Part shown: positions 1 to 34,040 of the stretch, piece by piece
How the letters are laid out: every line of letters begins with the position of its first letter
How positions within the stretch are numbered: position 1 is the first letter of the stretch
Origin: Thysanoteuthis rhombus
Taxonomy: Eukaryota; Mollusca; Cephalopoda; Oegopsida; Thysanoteuthidae
DNA: 64,000 nucleotides
Assembly: GCA_963457665.1 (NCBI GenBank)
Contig: OY735216.1
Coordinates: 37,446,544-37,510,543 of the forward strand
Direction: 5' to 3'
Notes under the pieces: generated by a model
Told to the model about the DNA's origin: nothing
Seen by the model: the letters and a program-made list of their open reading frames with translations, nothing else
Database searches by the model: none
Made by a program: the position numbers and the translations under genes

Positions 1-256
1 GGATTCTCACGTGTGCCATGTAACCTCATGTGATGTTATATGTGGTCACGATGTTACATGGTGGACATCCTTGATTAGAGAAAATTCAACGTCACGCTAT
101 CTCGCACCCAACAAAAACAGAAAATATGAGACATAGTCACATGAGCGAACCAGAAAGGACGTGATATCACGTGACTTGCAGCAGTGAGTCTCTCAGCAAT
201 AAGCGTTAGCCTTCGCACAACTAACGTTCACATGAACTCTTATGAGTTCACGTGAC
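1..256. promoter_or_regulatory. Cluster of E-box palindromes
   Basis: Three CACGTG palindromes (8-13, 168-173, 249-254) and two CACATG sites (138-143, 229-234) fall within 256 bases of AT-rich DNA. The last two sit in an inverted repeat: TCACATGAACTC (228-239), a 4-base spacer, and GAGTTCACGTGA (244-255), with one mismatch. CACGTG is the core site of bHLH factors of the USF/MYC/TFE type. No gene start is visible nearby, so a regulatory role is inference. The block could equally be the end of an unrecognised repeat. Confidence 0.3.
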
Positions 257-806
257 ATGATAACAATGTGTCCCCGCCTCTAGTCCAACAAATATGTTGG
301 CCATCAATGTATTGATGACTCATTTTCCAAATTCATCTCTGATTGTTTTGAATTATTTCTAGAATGCTAAAGTCTCAAGGCTCAAATCATGTTACGCCCT
401 TCGCTTAGTTGGTTCTCAAAATCAACGCTGCCCTAGTTATCTTGTATTATAAATCGATTATCGATTGTCTTAGAGTATGGTTTAAAATTTTCAGAAATTA
501 ACGAGTCTTACGGTAAAACACGAGAATTTTCTCGGATGACATCAAGTACGAATGAAAAATTAAAATAACAGAGAATAATGACAAGTAAGTAAGTAGAGAA
601 TCTCAGAATGATTTCGTTCAGAATTTTTAGTAAGAAAATATTGATATCAAGATTGCTTTAGAAAAATCAACGAATGGCAACATGGACGTTATGCAGGAAC
701 ATAACTGAGAAACGAGTGGATGATTTTAAATCTAAAGCTTCGTGAATAGTACTCCATCTAGGGCATTTCTACTAACATTACAATAACCAATCTCAATAAA
801 TGTTGA
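256..806. other. Unassigned AT-rich stretch
   Basis: No long reading frame, recognisable repeat or RNA gene was seen here. It reads as ordinary intergenic or intronic DNA. Confidence 0.5.
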
Positions 807-866
807 AGGAAGACTGTCAAGGAACCAAGCCCCCCGGCCCCCAGATCTACAGCTACGCCCCTAACA
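807..866 (-). mobile_element. Terminal piece of a GGCGTAGCTAG-type element
   Basis: The segment reads GGAACCAAGC, a C-rich run, CCAGATCTACAGCTACGCCCC. It aligns base for base with 63301-63352 and, in reverse complement, with 1185-1231. All would start with CAGNGGCGTAGCTNGAGA as an outer end. Ends of this type are common in non-autonomous DNA transposons of invertebrates. The superfamily cannot be told from the end alone, and no matching second end or target duplication was found. Confidence 0.4.
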
Positions 867-1184
867 CTAAGAATACATTTTCGAAAAAGGAGTGTGGGCC
901 AGCTTTTCTAATTTGCTAAAGTATTTTTTTTTTATTATTTTGTAGATCTAATTTTTATAATGGACTTCACCGAGGGCGCCTTCTACAGAGCAACGATTAA
1001 GGAAATCCAGCCCTCACTGAATGTTCTACTATTATGGGCCTGTGCCGGGCTTAAATAAGTAAACGTCTATATCAAATTGTACCATCCTTAATCAAGTCAG
1101 GCTGAAAATATTATTTCCTTTCACATCGCAGATGTTTAGCGACAATCAGCCTGCTCAGTACTGAGATGGATGTCCATTTTGGAA

Positions 1185-1231
1185 CATAGGGGTATAGCTG
1201 GAGATCTGGGGAGCCAACTGCTTGGCTCCTC
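1185..1231 (+). mobile_element. Terminal piece of a GGCGTAGCTAG-type element
   Basis: The segment starts AGGGGTATAGCTGGAGATC and continues into a GGAGCCAA block. It is the inverse of 807-866 with roughly three quarters of positions matching by eye. A third end in the same direction follows at 1371-1415 (CAGTGGCGTAGCCAGAGA). These are probably remains of several small elements rather than one intact element. Confidence 0.35.
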
Positions 1232-1370
1232 CCAACATTTTGCGTGATGGTTCCCAAACATGGGGATGCAGATCCCAAAGGGTCCATAAAAGTATTACTT
1301 GGGGTTCGTGAGCAGACCTTTCAAAGGCCTTGGGTCCGTAAACTTGTTGAGTAAGCAGTCATTTCAAAAG

Positions 1371-1415
1371 CAGTGGCGTAGCCAGAGATTCGAGCGACCA
1401 GCCGGGGTTTTTGGT
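1371..1415 (+). mobile_element. Element end starting CAGTGGCGTAGCC
   Basis: The segment begins CAGTGGCGTAGCCAGAGATT and runs into CCGGGG. It is the best-preserved copy of the terminal motif also seen at 807-866, 1185-1231 and 63301-63352. It stops just before the LINE at 1433, which may have inserted into or beside it. Confidence 0.35.
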
Positions 1416-1432
1416 CCCTTGATTTTGACTAA

Positions 1433-2265
1433 TCTGATTAAAATAGACGGCGAGTATCTGAGCAACCTCAGATTTGCAGACGACATTGCCCTTTTCGCAG
1501 AGAACCTACACGACCTCCAACTAATGATAGATGAACTAAATGAAGAGAGCAAGAAAGTCGGCCTACACATGAACTTCAGAAAAACGAAGATCATGTGCAA
1601 CAACCACATTGGAGATAAAAACACTAAGATCGAAATCGAGGACACAGAACTTGAGAAAGTAGACCACTACATCTACCTAGGACAACGAATCTCCATGAGA
1701 CCCTCAAAAGAAGAAGAAATCAAGCGAGGAATCACACTAGGATGGCAAGCCTTTGGCAGAGCTAGCTCAACCTTCAAAAATAATAAGATCCCATTAATCC
1801 TAAAGAGAAGGGTGTATAACCAATGCATCTTCCCAATAGTCACTTATGGAGCTGAAACATGGAACTTGACCAAGAAACAGACCCGTAAGCTGAGAACCAT
1901 GCAACGTGCATATGAAAGAATAATGCTGGGCCTCACATGGAGAGACCACAAAACAGCACAGTACATCCGAGAAAAGACAAGAGTTAGAGACATCATAGAA
2001 TCCATTAAAAATCTCAAATGGCGATGGGCTGGCCATGTTGCAAGAATGGCAGACAATCGATGGACATCACGACTCACAGCATGGATTCCCCGAGACCACA
2101 TGTGCAACTGAGGCCGGCAAAATGTTAGATGGAGAGACGAGCTAGACAAGTTCGGGAAGTACTGGCTCCGTGACGCCCATGACAGAGAAGTGTGGCAAAT
2201 CCTGGGGAAGGTCTATGTCCAACGACGGACGCTAAAAGACTGATGATGAGATGATGAGATTTCAT
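1433..2265 (+). mobile_element. RTE-like LINE, 5'-truncated, RT to 3' end
   Basis: This is the C-terminal half of an endonuclease-reverse transcriptase of the RTE type. The reading frame enters from unrelated DNA (open from 1299) and becomes LINE at IKIDGEYLSNLR. The RT catalytic box FADD is encoded at 1473-1484. It continues through the conserved tail WAGHVARMADNRWT and WRDELDKFGKYW to a TGA at 2241-2243. One premature TGA at 2109-2111 replaces a CGA codon kept in the copy at 31291-31839; the frame stays open on both sides. The 3' end is GACTGATGATGAGATGATGA, the short GAT tail typical of RTE elements. Over about 268 shared residues I count 18 differences from the copy at 31264-32586, so both are young. 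No clear target duplication was found. Confidence 0.85.
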
Positions 2266-3449
2266 CTTAATGTTCAGAAACGCGATCTATTATCTTTTCT
2301 TGTGAAGCACTTGGAACAGAGCTTCAAATCTTTCAACCAATGATCTACCATTGAGCAAAAAGTGAACATATTCTTTTTTTTTCTATGCAATCTGTAAAAC
2401 ATTAATCTTGTAATCGTAATCCCTTTACTCCTCAGATTTTCTCAATAGAAAATTATATCCACAAAGAACACTTACTGTAAAAAAAGCCTTACATTGGGAT
2501 TTAGCAGCATTGAATTATACGTGAAAATGTCTAGACAATTGTTATAGCGACTTTAATTCTAAAAAATTATTTCAAAACAAAACATAGGGTCCTTTTCCAA
2601 AACAGTAATTAACAAGCAGGGTTCGAATCAACCAAATCATCAACACAAGTCTCTTTAACTTGCTTATCTAACGATCGCAGTATTTATAAGGTTCAGTAAA
2701 AAGAAAGGTGTAGCTCTAGACCTGATTTGGTCCCCTGAAATTGGTTGGGTACTCTGTACAAAAGAAAAGCAGAACAATAATTAGTGTGAAATTCCAGAAA
2801 AAATCATTATCTATTGACTATGATTTTTTTTTCTTGACACATTTTTGGAAATAAAACAGCGAATTCTATTATAGACTGAGTTACAATGTTCTTCTCATAT
2901 TTCTAAAGTCTACAAAAATGTGCTTTTCTCATCGTATTATGTGTGTCTGAAAATCTGAGCGTCAACGTGCGTCCTCTATCATATTTAGAGGTCACAATGA
3001 ACGTAACTGATAGTTTTTATCCGGTTAAAATCACCTGTTTGCACTGGTCGACTGTTGTTTTTTTTATTTTGCTCTCTTACTTCTACTAAAATTAGTTCTC
3101 ACCAAAGCAAATGTCTTTATCTTGTGGGTATCGGGGATCTTTCAAGTAATCGATTCATAATTGTCCAGGAGAGTTATTGGTACGGGTTAGAAATCTGAGT
3201 TTCCTTCATCTTTGGTAAACATAAAATAATGAGTGCCACAGACCAGGCAAACTTAAACAAGGGAAATGATCTTACGATGTTTCATTTTTTGTTTTTAATC
3301 ACAGGAACTATTTAATAGTGTTTTTTTATCATTTAGTTTTTATACGTACGTGTAAGCAAACACACACATACGCTCGTGCACACATACATGCACGTACATG
3401 TACACACACCATTTTCTTGATGAAGGGGTACTCGTTGGCCAGATTAATT
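2266..3449. other. Unassigned stretch with a CA-rich patch
   Basis: No gene is recognisable. A degenerate CA/CATA-rich simple repeat lies at about 3358-3412. A lone B-box-like GGTTCGAATC near 2630 has no A box. The rest is AT-rich and featureless. Confidence 0.5.
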
Positions 3450-4022
3450 ACAAAATATAAAATGCCACTCGCTGTAACATTTATAGACCTCAAGAAGGCA
3501 TTCAAATCTGTTGAAATTCCCGTGGTCATGAAAGCCATCATTCTACAAGGTGTAGACCTTGTATACGTCAAAGTACTGCAACATATATACAATCACAGCA
3601 ACTCCTATATCAGGCTACATAAAGACTTTAAACCCTTCCAACTCCAAAAAGGAGTGAGGCAAGGTGATACCAGCTCACCAAAACTCTTTACAGCCTGCCT
3701 CAAGAGATCTTCCGAAACCTGGACTGGGAGAATAGAGGAATCAAAATAGACAGCGATTATCTGAGCAACCTCAGATTTGCATATGACATCGTCCTTTACG
3801 CAGAGAATCTACACGACCTTTAACTAATGCTAGATTAACTAAACTAAAGGCAAAAGAGTCGGCCTACATATGAACTTCAGTAAAACAAAAATCATGAGCA
3901 ACAATCACATCCGGGGATCCAAGACATCAGAGAATCTCTTAGAAAACTCAAATTACAATGGACTGGTTATGTTGCGAGAATGACAGACAACCGATGTGCA
4001 TTATGACTGGAACTGAAAAGGG
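3450..4022 (+). mobile_element. RTE-like LINE fragment with internal deletion
   Basis: The encoded peptide KMPLAVTFIDLKKAF followed by YNHSNSYIRLHKDF and GVRQGDTSSPKLF is the front half of the RT domain. A shift near 3705 moves the reading frame. After that, FRNLDWENRGIKID and LSNLRFAYDIVLYAENLHDL can be read with several stops; the catalytic FADD has become FAYD. Near 3920 the sequence jumps from the HMNFSKTK region to the RKLKLQWTGYVARMTDNR region, so about 130 codons are lost. There is no 3' GAT tail. This is an old, dead copy, more diverged than the copies at 1433 and 31264. Confidence 0.8.
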
Positions 4023-10775: not shown

Positions 10776-10967
10776 AAAATGGAAGAAATCTTTGTTGATT
10801 TTGACGTTTGGTTAACAATTTCTTATAGTAAATGTTAATATTTCATGAGAACTAAATAGACATCTTTTCATTTCAATAAAATAATACGTTTTATACCTAC
10901 TTATGAATAAATTTGAGCATTTGGATTTGTTTTTTGTTGTTGTTTTTTCATTTGTATAACCATTATT

Positions 10968-11817
10968 TCAGAGTCGTTATGTAGCCTGATGAAGGAGTTG
11001 TTGTGATGATCTTCCGTAACCTGGACTGGGAAAATAGAGGAATCAAAATAGACGGCAAATATCTAAGCAACCTCAGATTTGCAGACGACATCGTCCTTTT
11101 TGCAGAGAACCTGTGCGATCTCCAACTAATACTAGATGAACTAAACGAAAAAAGCAAAAGAGTCGGCCTACATATGAACTTCAGTAAAAAGTTATGTGCA
11201 ACAATCACATCAAGAATAAGGACATAACTGTCAAAAATCAAAGATGCAAAACTGGGGAAAGTGAACCACTACATCTACTTAGAACAACGAATCACTAAAA
11301 AATCAAGCAGAGAATCACCCTAGGATGGCTATCTTTTGGCAAAGCCATTTCAACCTTCAAAAACAAGAAGCCCCCATTAATTCTAAAAAGAAGAGTGTAT
11401 AACCAATGCATCCTCAGATAGTCCCTTACGCAGCTGAAATATGGAACCTAACCAAGAGACACACCCACCCACTGAGAAGCATGCAGCGTGCACATTAGAA
11501 AATCATGCTCAACCTCACATGGAGAGATAACAAGACAGCACAATATATCAGAAAGAAAACGGGGGTCAGAGACAGAATCTATTGGAAAACTCAAATGGCA
11601 ATGGGCTGGTCATGTTGTGTGAATGAAAGACAACAGATAGACATCATGATTCACAACATGGATCCCGAAAGACCACATGCGAAACCGAGGACGACAAAAT
11701 ACAGGATGCAGAGATGAACTAGACAAATTGAGAAAGTACTGGCTCTGCGACACTCATGATTGAGAAATGTAGTGGATCTTGGGGAAGGTCTATGTCCAAT
11801 GATGGACGTTAAAAGAC

Positions 11818-11850
<33 letters not shown>

Positions 11851-11876
11851 CGATGACGATGATGATGATGATGATA
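10968..11876 (+). mobile_element. RTE-like LINE with short 5' inversion
   Basis: Bases 10968-11003 are antisense LINE (GTCGTTATGTAGCCTGATGA matches the minus-strand copy at 32213-32245). From 11005 the sense strand starts at FRNLDWENRGIKIDG, then LSNLRFADDIVLFAENL with the catalytic FADD intact. About 75 bases of element sequence are missing at the junction. Frameshifts and stops break the rest: residues near SKKLCATIT, the GQRIS region, and later WNLTKRHT. The 3' end reads GACGTTAAAAGACTGATGATG and continues into a (GAT)n tail to 11876. This is an old non-functional copy. Confidence 0.8.
11816..11876 (+). repeat. (GAT)n 3' tail of the LINE
   Basis: About 20 GAT/GAC triplets follow the LINE's last codons. 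RTE elements end in short tandem repeats used in target-primed reverse transcription; this one has probably expanded by slippage. Shorter tails close the copies at 2241, 31291 and 47320. Confidence 0.85.
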
Positions 11877-12239
11877 ACCATTATTTTATAAAACTTCATC
11901 ATCATCTTGAAAGCGTTCCTAACATGGGTAGCCGTACGAACATGTCAGTTGAGACGAATATTTGAAGTCTAGTCTATTTACAAATGTTGCTTCAGTTGAT
12001 GAGTTGAGCCATTATAAAGAACAGAAATGGCTTAAAAGTAACTTGAAATCACAAGCAGTTGACAGATGGCTGACCAAGGAAAATACCAAAAGAACATATT
12101 TTCCCATCATAATTCTACGTGCTTTCAATCAATCAATTAGGTCTTCGTTTATTCTTTTAATTGTTGATGGTTATTTTGTTTTGTTTTTGCTTTTTTTTTT
12201 GAGGCAGGTTATATTTACCATGTAACCATGATGCTAAAT
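11877..12239. other. Unassigned stretch
   Basis: No gene or repeat was recognised. A frame of 87 codons at 11962-12225 has no family resemblance and ends in poly-hydrophobic residues from a T-rich run. Confidence 0.45.
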
Positions 12240-28980: not shown

Positions 28981-30105
28981 TTCTGAACTGTTATTAGAAT
29001 CTTACATTTGTGCGGTTGCACTCTTCCTCAATATTTCAAAAAGTTCAAAATTGATTTCAAATTGTAAGCATCCTTTTCAAACCAAATGATCATTATAGAA
29101 ATCTCCTGGATTTTTTTTTCTGCACTTGAAACTGTCTGTCTTCAAAGAACGAAGAGATTTTTTTCTAATCATCGAATGGGAAGGATTAAATACTGACATC
29201 ACTTTTGAAATACATTATACTTGGAATCAGTTTGGAACTTTATTTTGTGCATAAAAAAGTTCAGTTAGCGAAAAATGTAGACTTTCAATGTATTTCTCAA
29301 TTGGCTTCTCCAGTGAAGTATTAAGTTTGAAACAACAAGTAAAATTCTTTCCCGTGAAGTAAATTCGTCAACCTTAATTTATCTTTTAACTTTAAATGGG
29401 AACCAAGAGTTTGGGTCTTGTTTATTTCAATTCGCTATTCCCATATCACTAATTATTACATACGTATATAATTATTTCCATCTAGTTTTTGGTCCTGTCT
29501 AATTCAATTAGATATTAAAAGGAGATATAACTACGAGGATACCAAGTTTTTTGGTCCTGTTTAATTAAATTTCTCAACAACAATCGCAAAAGCTGGAGAC
29601 TTCAGATAAAATGAACGATGTCGACATGACAACAGCTTTAATCCTAAGCTTGTTGACCTGAGTCAGGGACAATTTTTCGAACAATGGTTTCTTGTACCAA
29701 CAGCAGCATGATGAATATTCATTGATTGTCAATGGGAAAATCAATACGAAGTCACGATGAAATAGTCGTACTACAATTTTGAAAAAAAAAATACTTTTGA
29801 GACAAGAATCTTGTCTTTGCCGAGATAAAAATCTTTTTTAAGTTTATGCGTTATTATCGGCCGATGTATCAAGTCATTCATCTCAATTCTACATAAAACT
29901 GACGTTAATTCAACTTGAACGAATCGTATTTAAACATTGATTCAATTTATCACCTCCTTTGATTTTTTTTGCGTGGTTTATGATAGAGACTACTAATGAA
30001 TCATTTGTATCAAAACGAAAAATCGTCGGACTAAGAAATACGGTATACTGACCTTTGTTTATCGAAAACAATATCTGAAAAGATTACTTCTAATCTTCGG
30101 CTTGA
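28981..30105. other. Unassigned AT-rich stretch
   Basis: Nothing recognised. The last part could belong to the 5' side of the Penelope-like element, but no RT motif was seen. Confidence 0.45.
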
Positions 30106-30109
30106 AGAA

Positions 30110-30807
30110 CTTCATAAAAACCTACTTGAGCAAAATTATAATCTCTCCCTAATTGGAGATGGAATTGAAAAAGCCACAGAATTAGACGGCAATTGCTAGC
30201 TGTAAGCATTAAATATAACAAAACACCCACTATTCCGTTGGTCAACATCCACAACCCTTCAAACCCTTAAGTATTTAAAGAAATGCAGCAAGACATCCAC
30301 ATAACAGATATCTACGGAAGCAACATCTTCATTAAAGTTCTCAGTAATTGAAAGTAAACGCCAACATCTAAATTTAAAAAAGCTTCTGACAAAAGCCACG
30401 TACTTTAGAAAACAGAACTCGAGAAAAAGATGACCAAATGCAATCGACCAAACTGTGGCTTATGTGTACACTTAATAAGAGGAGATAGATATACTTTCAA
30501 ATGTGGTACAACCTTTAAAATCAAATTCAACATCTCCTGCGACGTGAAAAACACCATCTATACCAATATTTGCTCAGGTTGTGATAAGGAATATATTGGG
30601 GACACTTTTCGCCTCGGGAATAGGAACACAGTAGACAAGCAGCAAATTGGGTATTCTTCTACTAGGATCCTCAAAGGCAGGTTGCATATCGATAAATGCT
30701 CTCCACGAGAACCACTATTTTTCAGTTTTCCCTTTCTACAAAATGAACACCGACAATATTGTACCAAGAAGGAAACAGATTTATACAGGCTTGGAAACAT
30801 GCATTAA
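30110..30807 (+). mobile_element. Penelope-like element fossil, linker and GIY-YIG domain
   Basis: The clearest part is at 30430-30807: CNRPNCGLC, a Cys-rich linker, then CDVKNTIYTNICSGCDKEYIG. This is the (GIY)-YIG nuclease region at the C-terminus of Penelope-like elements. In lophotrochozoan copies, as I recall them, it reads TKCNRPNCGLC...SCDVKNVIYVIRCSGC. The preceding 300 bases give short matches to the end of the RT (SLIGDGIEKA) and to the stretch before the linker. The element is old, broken in several places and truncated at its 5' side; no terminal repeats were found. It is a retroelement class distinct from LINEs and from LTR elements. Confidence 0.75.
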
Positions 30808-30859
30808 ATTTTAATTACTAATCAACTGATTAATATGAAACATATACTCTGATTATCTT

Positions 30860-31263
30860 AGAAAACATAATTCCCTTTTTTTTTCGAATCTTAAAGTTGA
30901 CCCCCACAAACAAACCCCTACACATTCCATGGACCCCTTGACTAATCTCTTCTTTCCACAACACCCCATTACACGCCTCGTCTCTCATACACATAATTCG
31001 ACCACAGCTGCTTAAACACTCTATTTCATACCATCCCCTCTTGAACACTCCATTACACCCGAAACCCTCACTCATATACTGATATTCATACCCAATATAT
31101 ACACAGCTGCTGATACGCACTCTTACACACATTGTTACTATACCTCTTTTACCCATCTCCTCATAGGGAGTTCCAATAACACCCAGCCTTCCTTCTCAAA
31201 ACACTCACCAACATCAAGAATTTTTGACATTCATGGAATTTGAACTCAAATCAAGATTTATGT
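30860..31263. other. C-rich, G-poor stretch
   Basis: The plus strand is rich in CAC/CCC words (CACCCATT-like, ACACATTG). It may be the 3' untranslated part of the Penelope-like element or an old simple repeat. The 108-codon minus frame here is a by-product of that bias. GAATTTGAACTCAAATC near 31240 resembles an inverted B box. Confidence 0.4.
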
Positions 31264-32586
31264 CATTCATCATCATCATCATCATCATCATCAGTCTTTT
31301 AGCGTCCTTCGTTGGACATAGACCTTCCCCAGGATTTGCCACACTTCTCTATCATGGGCGTCACGGAGCCAGTACTTCCTGAACTTGTCTAGCTCGTCTC
31401 TCCATCTAACATTTTGCCAGCCTCGGTTGCGCATGTGGTCTCGGGGAATCCATGTTGTGAGTCGTATCGTCCATCGATTGTCTGCCATTCTTACAACATG
31501 GCCAGCCCACCGCCATTTGAGATTTTTTATGGATTCTATGATATCTCTAACTCTTGTCTTTTCCCGGATGTACTGTGCTGTTTTGTGGTCTCTCCATGTG
31601 AGGCCCAGCATTATTCTTTCATGTGCACGTTGCATGGTTCTCAATTTACGGGTCTGTCTCTTGGTTAAGTTCCATGTTTCAGCTCCATAAGTGACTATTG
31701 GGAGGATGCATTGGTTATACACCCTTCTCTTTAGGATTAATGGGATCTTATTATTTTTGAAGGTTGATCTAGCTCTGCCAAAGGCTTGCCATCCTAGTGT
31801 GATTCTTCGCTTGATTTCTTCTTCTTTTGAGGGTCTCATGGAGATTCGTTAGCCTAGGTAGATGCAGTGGTCTACTTTCTCGAGTTCTGTGTCCTCGATT
31901 TCGATCTTAGTGTTTTTATCTCCAATGTGGTTTTTGCACATGATTTTCGTCTTTCTGAAGTTCATGTGTAGGCCGACTTTCTTACCCTCTTCATTTAGTC
32001 CATCTATCATTAGTTGGAGGTCGTGTAAGTTCTCTACGAAAAGGGCTATGTCGTCTGCGAATCTGAGGTTGCTCAGATACTCGCCGTCTATTTTAATTCC
32101 TTTACTCTCCCAGTCTAGCCTTCTGAAGATCATCTCGAGGCAGGCTGTGAAGAGTTTAGGTGAGCTGGTATCACCTTGTCTTACTCCTTTCTGGAGCTGG
32201 AAGGGGTCCGAGTCTTTATGTAGCCTGATAAATGAGCTGCCGTGATTGTATATATGTTTCAACACTTCAACATATACTGGATCTACACCTTACCGACTGA
32301 TGGCCTCCATGACCTTAGGGATTCCTACTGAGTCGAACGCCTTTTTGAAGTCGATAAATGCTACGGCAAGTGGTAGTTTATACTCTGCTGCTTTTTCTTT
32401 CAGTTGATTTATCGAGTGCAGGTGGTCCATGGTCGAGTAGCTTCTTCTAAAGCCAGCCTGTTCACGTGGCTGGTTTTCATCGAGTGTTTTTGTGATTCGG
32501 TTGGTGATGATCTGTGTGAAAAGTTTGTATATACAGTTGAGTAGGTTTATAGGCCTATAGTTGTTGAGGTCTTTTGGGTTTCCTAT
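31264..32586 (-). mobile_element. RTE-like LINE, young 5'-truncated copy with most of RT
   Basis: From 32586 on the minus strand: NPKDLNNYRPINLLN, FRRSYSTMDHLHS, PLAVAFIDFKKAFDSVG, GVRQGDTSSPKLFTACLE, LSNLRFADDIALF (FADD catalytic box), then WAGHVVRMADNRWT and WRDELDKFRKYW. It ends RRTLKD and a stop at 31291, followed by a (CAT)n tail on the plus strand at 31264-31291. Only two premature stops were seen: a TAA for CAA in the GxRISMRPS motif (between 31839 and 31849), and another TAA near 32293. The endonuclease is missing through 5' truncation. Near identity with 1433-2265 points to recent activity of this subfamily, marked by HMNFRKTK where older copies have HMNFSKTK. Confidence 0.88.
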
Positions 32587-32738
32587 GAAACTAAGACCAT
32601 TTACCAGATAGCGGCCAGTAAATCCACAAGCAGAATCACATCTGCACTTTTCATGAACATGAACGAAAGCGGGTAAGGCTTATAAAAAAATCACTTCACC
32701 AAAAAAAAAAAAAACTACAAAGTTTGGCTTTCATTTTC

Positions 32739-32750
32739 TCACTTCAATTT
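32739..32750. repeat. Target-site duplication, left
   Basis: TCACTTCAATTT, identical to 33632-33643, next to the CATCAT tail of the LINE. Confidence 0.85.
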
Positions 32751-33631
32751 CATCATCAGTCTTTTGACGTTCGTCGTTGGACATACACCTTCCCTGGGAT
32801 TTGCCACAATTCTCTATCATGGGCGTTGCAGAGCCAGTACTTCCCGAATCTGTCGAGTTCATCTCTCCATCTTGTTTTGTGTCGGCCTCGGTTTCTTATG
32901 TGATCTCTGGGGATCCATGTTGTGAGACGTGATATCCATTGGTTGTTTTTCATTCTTGCAACATGGCCTACCCATTGCCATTTGAGTTTTATAATAGTTT
33001 CTATGATGTCATGGACATCAGTTTTCTTCCTTATATATTGTGCTGTCTTGTGAACTCTCCATGAAAGGTTGAGCATGATTCTCTTATGCACGAGTTGCAT
33101 ACTTCTCAGTTTGTAGGTCTGTCTCTTGGTTAGGTTCCATGTTTCAGCTCCATAAGTGACCGTCGGGAGAATCCATTAACTCCTTAATTAGGCTGCATGA
33201 GGACTCCGAACCGTTTCAGCTTCAAAAAGGAGTAAGACAAGGTGATACCAGCTCACCCAAACTCTTTACAGCCTGCCTTGAGATGATCTTCCGAAACATG
33301 GACTGGGAAAATAGAGGAATCAAAATAGACGGCGAATACTTGAGCAAACTTAGATTTGCAGACGACATCGCTCTTTTCGCTGAGAACCTACACGACCTCC
33401 AACTAATGCTAGTTGATCTAAACGAAGAAAGCAAAAAAGTCAGCCTACACATGAACTTCAGTAAAAGGAAAATCATGTGCAATAATCATGTTGAGAATAA
33501 GAACATAACTGTCGAAATAGAAGATGCAAAACTCAGCAAGGTAGACCACTACATCTACTTTGGACAACGAATCTCCATGAGACCCTCCAAAGAGGAGGAA
33601 ATCAAGCGAATAATCATTTTGGGATGGCAAG
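32751..33631 (-). mobile_element. RTE-like LINE with inverted 5' half (twin priming)
   Basis: The 3' part (32751-33180) is minus-strand LINE: from WILPTVTYGAETW-like sequence through KLKWQWVGHVARM to RRTSKD and a very short CAT tail. The adjoining part (33181-33631) is plus-strand LINE: SLIRLHEDSEPFQLQKGVRQGD, FRNMDWENRGIKIDG, LRFADDIALF, to IKRIIILGWQ. About 75 bases of element between GWQ and WILPT are missing at the junction. The unit is flanked by the 12-bp direct repeat TCACTTCAATTT (32739-32750 and 33632-33643). One insertion with a 5' inversion explains all of this. The inverted frame is open for more than 110 codons. Confidence 0.88.
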
Positions 33632-33643
33632 TCACTTCAATTT
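33632..33643. repeat. Target-site duplication, right
   Basis: TCACTTCAATTT, identical to 32739-32750, immediately after the GGATGGCAAG of the inverted LINE part. Confidence 0.85.
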
Positions 33644-34040
33644 ATTCAGCCTTTATTCTAAATTTATCTGCCTATGTTCCTATGTATGTAGCGAACGAAT
33701 GTAGTACGGACTTTTACTCTTATCCCTTTTTTAACCATGAGATCGCTGCATATATTGCCCGAAGAGATTACTTTGAATGAGACAATGGAAATTAGGTGTT
33801 GAGGTTTTTTGTTTTGTTTTTTTTGTTTTGTTTTTTTTTCATGTTGAAATTCCCTGAAATGTTGGGTATCACCTAATATGTGCGTGCATTCAAATCAATT
33901 CCTAATTCTAGGTGTGTTATACATGAAGTATCTTTTTTACATCATCTAAAATGGAAAATTTACAGATGTAATTTCATTCAATGTAATTGAAGATATACGT
34001 AATTTGTTTGGAGTATTTGATTTCTCAACTGCAATAGTCT
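33644..34040. other. Unassigned stretch
   Basis: T-rich tract at 33799-33839; nothing else recognised. Confidence 0.45.

Follow-up and report, generated by a model that had tools for sequence, protein, structure and literature searches.

Does a LINE whose two halves lie head to head between copies of one short target sequence record a single insertion, and how would such an insertion have been made? The question is raised by a locus in the cephalopod Thysanoteuthis rhombus (assembly GCA_963457665.1), within a 64,000-nucleotide stretch of contig OY735216.1 (positions 37,446,544 to 37,510,543 of the forward strand), which is referred to hereafter as the window. A preliminary description had interpreted the locus as an RTE-like element inserted by twin priming, a layout known best from mammalian L1. 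We examined the structure of the locus, relatives of its host sequence that lack the insertion, and other copies of the element in the genome.

Layout of the focal insertion

The focal insertion is an 881-bp fragment of an RTE-type LINE (window positions 32751-33631) between exact 12-bp duplications, TCACTTCAATTT, at 32739-32750 on the left and 33632-33643 on the right. By chance, about 1.7 matches resembling this 12-mer would be expected somewhere in the window; the observed pair coincides precisely with the ends of the element, and there are no other matches in the window at up to one mismatch. Both halves were aligned to a single genomic copy, L032 (sense positions 1-3107), which serves here as the ruler in place of the family consensus that had been proposed. 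By BLAST against L032, the 3' part (32751-33177, minus strand) corresponds to ruler 2645-3078 with 90.6% identity, and the inverted upstream part (33174-33631, plus strand), which holds the reverse-transcriptase core, corresponds to ruler 2115-2572 with 90.8% identity. The BLAST match of the 3' part extended 7 bases into the duplication, and the end of the element is placed at about 32751. A short TGA-repeat tail occupies 32751-32759 (CATCATCAG as read on the plus strand), and one TGA of this tail is the stop codon of an open frame at 32756-33175 on the minus strand. The plus-strand half matches RVT_1 with an E value of 1.2e-12.

The two parts meet at 33174-33177, where four bases fit either part by BLAST and at least one does so by strict identity. 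Measured against L032, 72 nt of the element are missing between the halves (76 if the four ambiguous bases are assigned to one side), in agreement with the loss of about 75 bases claimed earlier. The head-to-head arrangement given in the preliminary description (3' half on the minus strand, upstream half on the plus strand), its coordinates and its flanking 12-bp duplication were likewise confirmed almost to the base. At the outer junction, no bases are common to the target and the element.

Identity of the element

The anatomy of the element fits an RTE-type LINE, and the label rests on that anatomy. An AP-type endonuclease and a reverse transcriptase are both present: the long copy L032 matches Exo_endo_phos_2 (E 2.4e-9), and RVT_1 was found in a neighbouring copy (31267-32584) as well as in the focal one, the domains being read piecewise in decayed copies. 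The 3' UTR is very short and carries TGA repeats; the focal coding frame ends inside the tail, and other copies are also tailed. RTE elements are described as having a 3' UTR that is very short and finishes in short tandem repeats (PMC1852546). Copies L032 and L042 agree over 3.1 kb, which fits an RTE full length of about 3.2-3.3 kb as given for RTE-1 and SR3 (PMC1291365). The 5' end of the element is not fixed because L032 and L042 carry tandem units about 108 nt apart.

Some copies have other irregularities. Ruler position 2429 is the start of both L033 and L060 and the end of a piece in the window (3451-3907); this position may be a breakpoint or pause site common to the three. L048 (which lacks ruler 1214-2442), L067 and window 3451-3996 keep a straight orientation but have large internal deletions, of the kind that a jump during reverse transcription would leave.

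Empty sites among host-repeat relatives

The focal insertion lies in an older host repeat, which was delimited by alignment to its relatives. On the plus strand the repeat occupies 32585-32738, between a neighbouring RTE copy and the focal insertion, and continues to the right at 33644-33690, where the resemblance stops in most relatives. Empty sites were sought with a query made of the left flank, one copy of the 12-mer and the right flank, and the best 40 of 187 candidates were scored. These empty sites are relatives of the host repeat within one genome, not the same locus elsewhere. Two of the 40 were the locus itself, and 37 of the other 38 matches listed run through the join of the flanks. 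Of 18 relatives that were fetched, 17 align through the join, with identities of 71-77% and with a target region whose length deviates by about -4 to +8 bases. Because the relatives are only this similar and the target varies in length, they do not retain the 12-mer in exact form; the region is present once. In relative L020, 1463 bases aligned to the window from 30067 to 33690, and both LINE copies are absent from it. The empty site with a single target that had been anticipated is thus represented by host-repeat relatives, and the two separate insertions that had been considered as an alternative did not appear within this one genome, where these relatives lack the insertion. The focal insertion is a real, single event, since its joined flanks match relatives that do not contain it.

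The neighbouring RTE copy in the same host repeat (31267-32584, minus strand) is 5'-truncated and has no visible duplication. It represents a different subfamily (about 80% alike), and 166 bases separate its end from the focal element. The host repeat (30067-33690) also contains an open frame at 30409-30807, which gave no Pfam match at an E value of 0.01; we take it to resemble the GIY-YIG end of a Penelope-like element.

Other 5'-inverted copies

The genome (2.73 Gb) was searched with the focal 3' part, and the best 40 of 11251 candidates were considered. Apart from the focal locus, which was one of the 40, every match was fetched (39 copies); for the last 19 the sequence retrieved included about 1.7 kb upstream. 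Four of these 39 copies, which are those most similar to the focal copy rather than a random sample, are 5'-inverted (L038, L043, L066 and L047), and a fifth (L050) is probably so. By BLAST, L038 consists of ruler pieces 2521-2663 and 2641-3078, with 23 nt of the element present in both; L043 consists of pieces 1958-2061 and 2025-3074, with an overlap of 37 nt; and L066 consists of pieces 1791-1826 and 2042-3078.

L047 (ruler 1417-1441 and from 1769) was initially classed as a plain truncated copy and was found through a search for duplications up to 3 kb upstream of such copies. In it, a 27-base filler looks like a piece of the element in inverted orientation. When first tested against L032, the filler scored 28, under the top of 60 shuffles (31); against L042 it scored 30 compared to 22. 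In a subsequent screen of 39 entries that was independent of duplications, and in which three entries were already known to be inverted, L047 scored 35 compared to a maximum of 24 in 300 shuffles. Seven bases at its inversion junction are unexplained. L050 has an 8-bp duplication and a filler resembling an inverted piece (score 25, shuffle maximum 31, p 0.01); we regard it as probably 5'-inverted and kept it outside both the inverted and the plain groups.

Three further candidates were rejected. The best inverted match of L071 stops 14 bases short of the junction, despite a p of 0.03; L052, with an 8-bp duplication lying 13 bases away, gave no inverted match; and in L060 the inverted match lies about 256 bases away from the 3' part.

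A second 5'-inverted RTE copy, from a more distant subfamily, is present in the window at 10967-11873 on the plus strand (the 11-kb copy). Its inverted piece spans 10967-11005 and its 3' part begins at 11001; a 13-bp duplication, ATAACCATTATTT, lies at 10956-10968 and 11874-11886 and shares 2 bases with the insert. With the focal copy, two of the six copies in the window that have a 3' end are therefore inverted. Among six copies of a younger subfamily, none of the four whose 5' end falls inside the fetched sequence gave an acceptable inversion.

In all six inverted copies, the focal one included, the inverted piece begins at a more upstream point of the element than the 3' piece does. Four of the copies have element gaps between the two pieces (72, 215, 67 and about 330 nt), and in the other two the pieces share 23 and 37 nt. 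The focal inversion itself was not encountered again: when its junction was used as a query (151 bases), all 39 other matches among the best 40 of 1560 stop within 5 bases of the junction, so that none of the matches listed shares the rearrangement, as a duplicated locus would have done.

Among the inverted copies, empty-site searches covered the focal copy, L043, L038 and the 11-kb copy. For L043, 36 of 38 non-self matches listed span the join, and its 10-mer occurs once, as a variant with 1-3 changes and no gap, in all five empty-site relatives that were fetched. For L038, the join is spanned by one of three non-self matches, and the spanning relative has ATTAATAATC exactly and once. The search with the 11-kb copy gave no relative, only its own two halves. 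The survey for further 5' inversions that the preliminary description had called for thus yielded independent inverted copies with duplications, two of them (L043 and L038) with empty sites of their own. The inverted focal copy is not a one-off; several independent copies exist in the Thysanoteuthis rhombus genome.

Microhomology at the junctions varied between copies. At the inversion junction L038 shares no base, L066 shares 2, and L043 and the 11-kb copy share about 4-5, the upper end of the range observed (about 5 nt). An outer junction is definable in every inverted copy except L066, and the bases common to target and element there number 5 in L047, 3 in L043, 2 in the 11-kb copy, 1 in L038 and 0 in the focal copy.

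Duplications in inverted and plain truncated copies

The target-site duplications of RTE elements are reported to peak at 10-12 bp (PMC4245944). Compared to this peak, five of the six inverted copies have duplications of 10-13 bp at their outer ends (focal 12, L038 10-11, L043 10, L047 12 and the 11-kb copy 13), whereas a duplication of at least 10 bp was found in 1 of 37 plain truncated copies. No recognisable duplication was present at the outer ends of L066. The plain set comprised 39 entries minus L047 and L050. Two copies that run beyond the fetched sequence (L069 and L070) were placed outside this set, as were five whose 5' ends are unbounded (L032, L042, L048, L067 and the 44-kb copy in the window), none of which reached 8 bp.

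Among the plain truncated copies, L053 alone has at least 10 bp beside its 5' end; L037 and L068 reach 8 bp, and the remaining 34 of 37 (L029-L073 and the window) have no duplication of at least 8 bp, among them three of four young plain copies (about 96-98% identity). The 8-bp match of L037 is attributed to chance, as a relative at the same locus has a near-blunt join, and that of L068 overlaps the TGA tail and is indistinguishable from it. When the neighbouring copy (31267-32584), the 47-kb copy and L037 were compared with relatives lacking them, no duplication was seen in these loose alignments (66-74%).

With the focal copy omitted, 4 of 5 inverted copies compared to 1 of 37 plain copies gave p 0.0002 by Fisher's test, in a comparison that involves few inverted copies and in which the focal copy had been chosen partly for its duplication and L047 noticed through its own. 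Counting L050 as an inverted copy that misses the threshold gave 4 of 6 compared to 1 of 37 (p 0.0006). Counting L047 as plain gave 3 of 4 compared to 1 of 40 (p 0.001), and a lenient plain count of 4 of 40 gave p 0.01. In a control with swapped flanks, 8 bp was reached in 16 of 1892 trials. When 10-12 bp duplications with a divergence of 3, 6, 9 and 12% were implanted, the duplication finder recovered 92, 82, 69 and 55%, respectively, so that the missing duplications of plain copies are not solely a matter of poor detection. Since the copies are mostly 8-12% apart, short duplications are invisible, and those of 1-7 bp would escape the finder.

All six duplications of at least 10 bp (focal, L038, L043, L047, L053 and the 11-kb copy) can be read as starting with A, and some have a T run about 10 bases upstream; the initial A may belong to the TGA tail. 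An initial A with an upstream T run resembles the Tn-TA signature described for Bov-B (PMC13295347).

Mechanism of insertion

A single target-primed insertion, concluded by twin priming, is very probably the origin of the focal RTE-type LINE. Twin priming predicts a single outer duplication, an inverted piece derived from upstream in the element, and gaps or overlaps between the pieces; the focal copy has all of these, and the twin-priming layout proposed in the preliminary description is supported. Judging from the structure, two primers would have acted on one RNA. The element endonuclease would nick the plus strand after TCACTTCAATTT, and the 3' end at the nick would serve as primer for reverse transcription starting in the RNA's TGA-repeat tail, which would give the 3' part. 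The 12-bp duplication suggests a subsequent cut in the other strand at a distance of 12 bases, which would create a 3' overhang. This overhang may have invaded the same RNA at a point, about 500 nt from the 3' end, that the first cDNA had not yet passed; the second cDNA would run towards the RNA 5' end to give the inverted part. Joining of the two cDNA ends would leave the 72 nt of RNA between them uncopied.

The second cDNA might instead have been primed on another RNA molecule of the same family, a reading that we consider improbable. L038 and L043, whose pieces overlap by 23 and 37 nt, are what two RNAs would naturally produce, and priming on one RNA is indistinguishable in itself from priming on two molecules. 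However, the strict upstream order in all six inverted copies, with the gaps and overlaps given above, is better explained by one RNA, and the two focal halves match the ruler copy equally well (90.6 and 90.8%).

A later inversion, in which an ordinary 5'-truncated insertion suffered two subsequent breaks inside the locus, is very unlikely. It would also leave the duplication intact if one break fell exactly at the duplication's edge. Such a history requires a break at that edge together with an internal deletion, both repeated independently, as the inverted piece abuts the duplication in five of the six inverted copies; moreover, the doubled stretches of element in L038 and L043 are not made by a simple inversion. 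Two separate head-to-head insertions are hardly credible: same-family copies do cluster here, as the neighbouring RTE copy attests, but there is no stretch of target between the halves, the plus-strand half lacks a 3' tail and stops within the RT region, the 12-mer flanks the pair and not each half, and the host-repeat relatives contain neither half.

Returning to twin priming, the distribution of duplications raises the possibility, which we offer tentatively and with some doubt, that the second-strand break decides the outcome: staggered cuts leaving a 10-13 nt overhang might lead to twin priming, and near-blunt cuts to plain truncation. If this is true, a long duplication would nearly mark an inversion in this RTE family.

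Comparison with known systems

The inverted copies resemble the products of L1 twin priming in having an inverted 5' piece, a sense 3' piece, one duplication round both and, in some copies, shared bases at the junctions; inverted L1 copies have been described (PMC2912911). Inverted L1 inserts mostly have duplications of 10-20 bp, and among 5'-truncated L1 copies duplications of 1-9 bp are commoner (PMC4245944, the latter citing another paper). L1 has poly(A), whereas the element here is of RTE type with a TGA-repeat tail and a duplication of 10-13 bp, and most plain truncated copies (34 of 37) have no duplication of at least 8 bp.

Among RTE elements, HzRTE-1 of Helicoverpa zea (PMC1852546) and a (TGA)n-ended lepidopteran RTE (PMC2887409) have the same short TGA-repeat 3' UTR and an RTE-type RT, and HzRTE-1 has a 10-bp duplication like the element here. 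Their copies are described as 5'-truncated or full length, and the portions of these two papers that were covered report no 5' inversion; the words "inverted" and "inversion" are both absent from that of PMC2887409. SR3, a member of the RTE clade from Schistosoma mansoni (PMC1291365), is similar in length (about 3.2 kb), in encoding an endonuclease and RT, and in its duplications of 10-12 bp. It differs in its TAAG-repeat 3' end and its 177-bp 3' UTR, and the word "inversion" is absent from the covered part of that account. The duplications of Bov-B have been studied in a paper whose covered text uses neither "inversion" nor "inverted" (PMC13295347). As far as the covered text of each extends, twin priming is named only in a reference in PMC5389967 and is invoked for L1 chimeras in PMC4476161, where L2 and RTE chimeras are explained by template switching only. 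In the literature covered (Ichiyanagi and Okada 2008 and Ostertag and Kazazian 2001 excluded), we found no report of 5'-inverted RTE copies.

The closest parallel outside L1 comes from Nimb-2_DR inserts in chicken DT40 cells, in which a non-L1 LINE gave duplications of about 12 bp and one 5' inversion (PMC4245944). That case differs in involving another LINE family, a cell-culture assay and a single inversion. According to the covered part of the same study, 5' inversions arose only with L1 in human cells, this one insert excepted, and were attributed to features of L1 together with host factors, above all a long overhang. Because the overhang of RTE elements is similar in length (10-12 bp, PMC4245944), RTE offers a natural test of this dependence. 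L1 twin priming is already known; relative to the literature covered, the novelty lies in the clade and in the association of inversion with a staggered cut. The RTE-type element of Thysanoteuthis rhombus has undergone repeated 5' inversions accompanied by duplications of 10-13 bp, and its plain truncated copies mostly have none. If a genome-wide count agrees, twin priming would be a general outcome of LINE insertion that is set by overhang length and not a peculiarity of L1.
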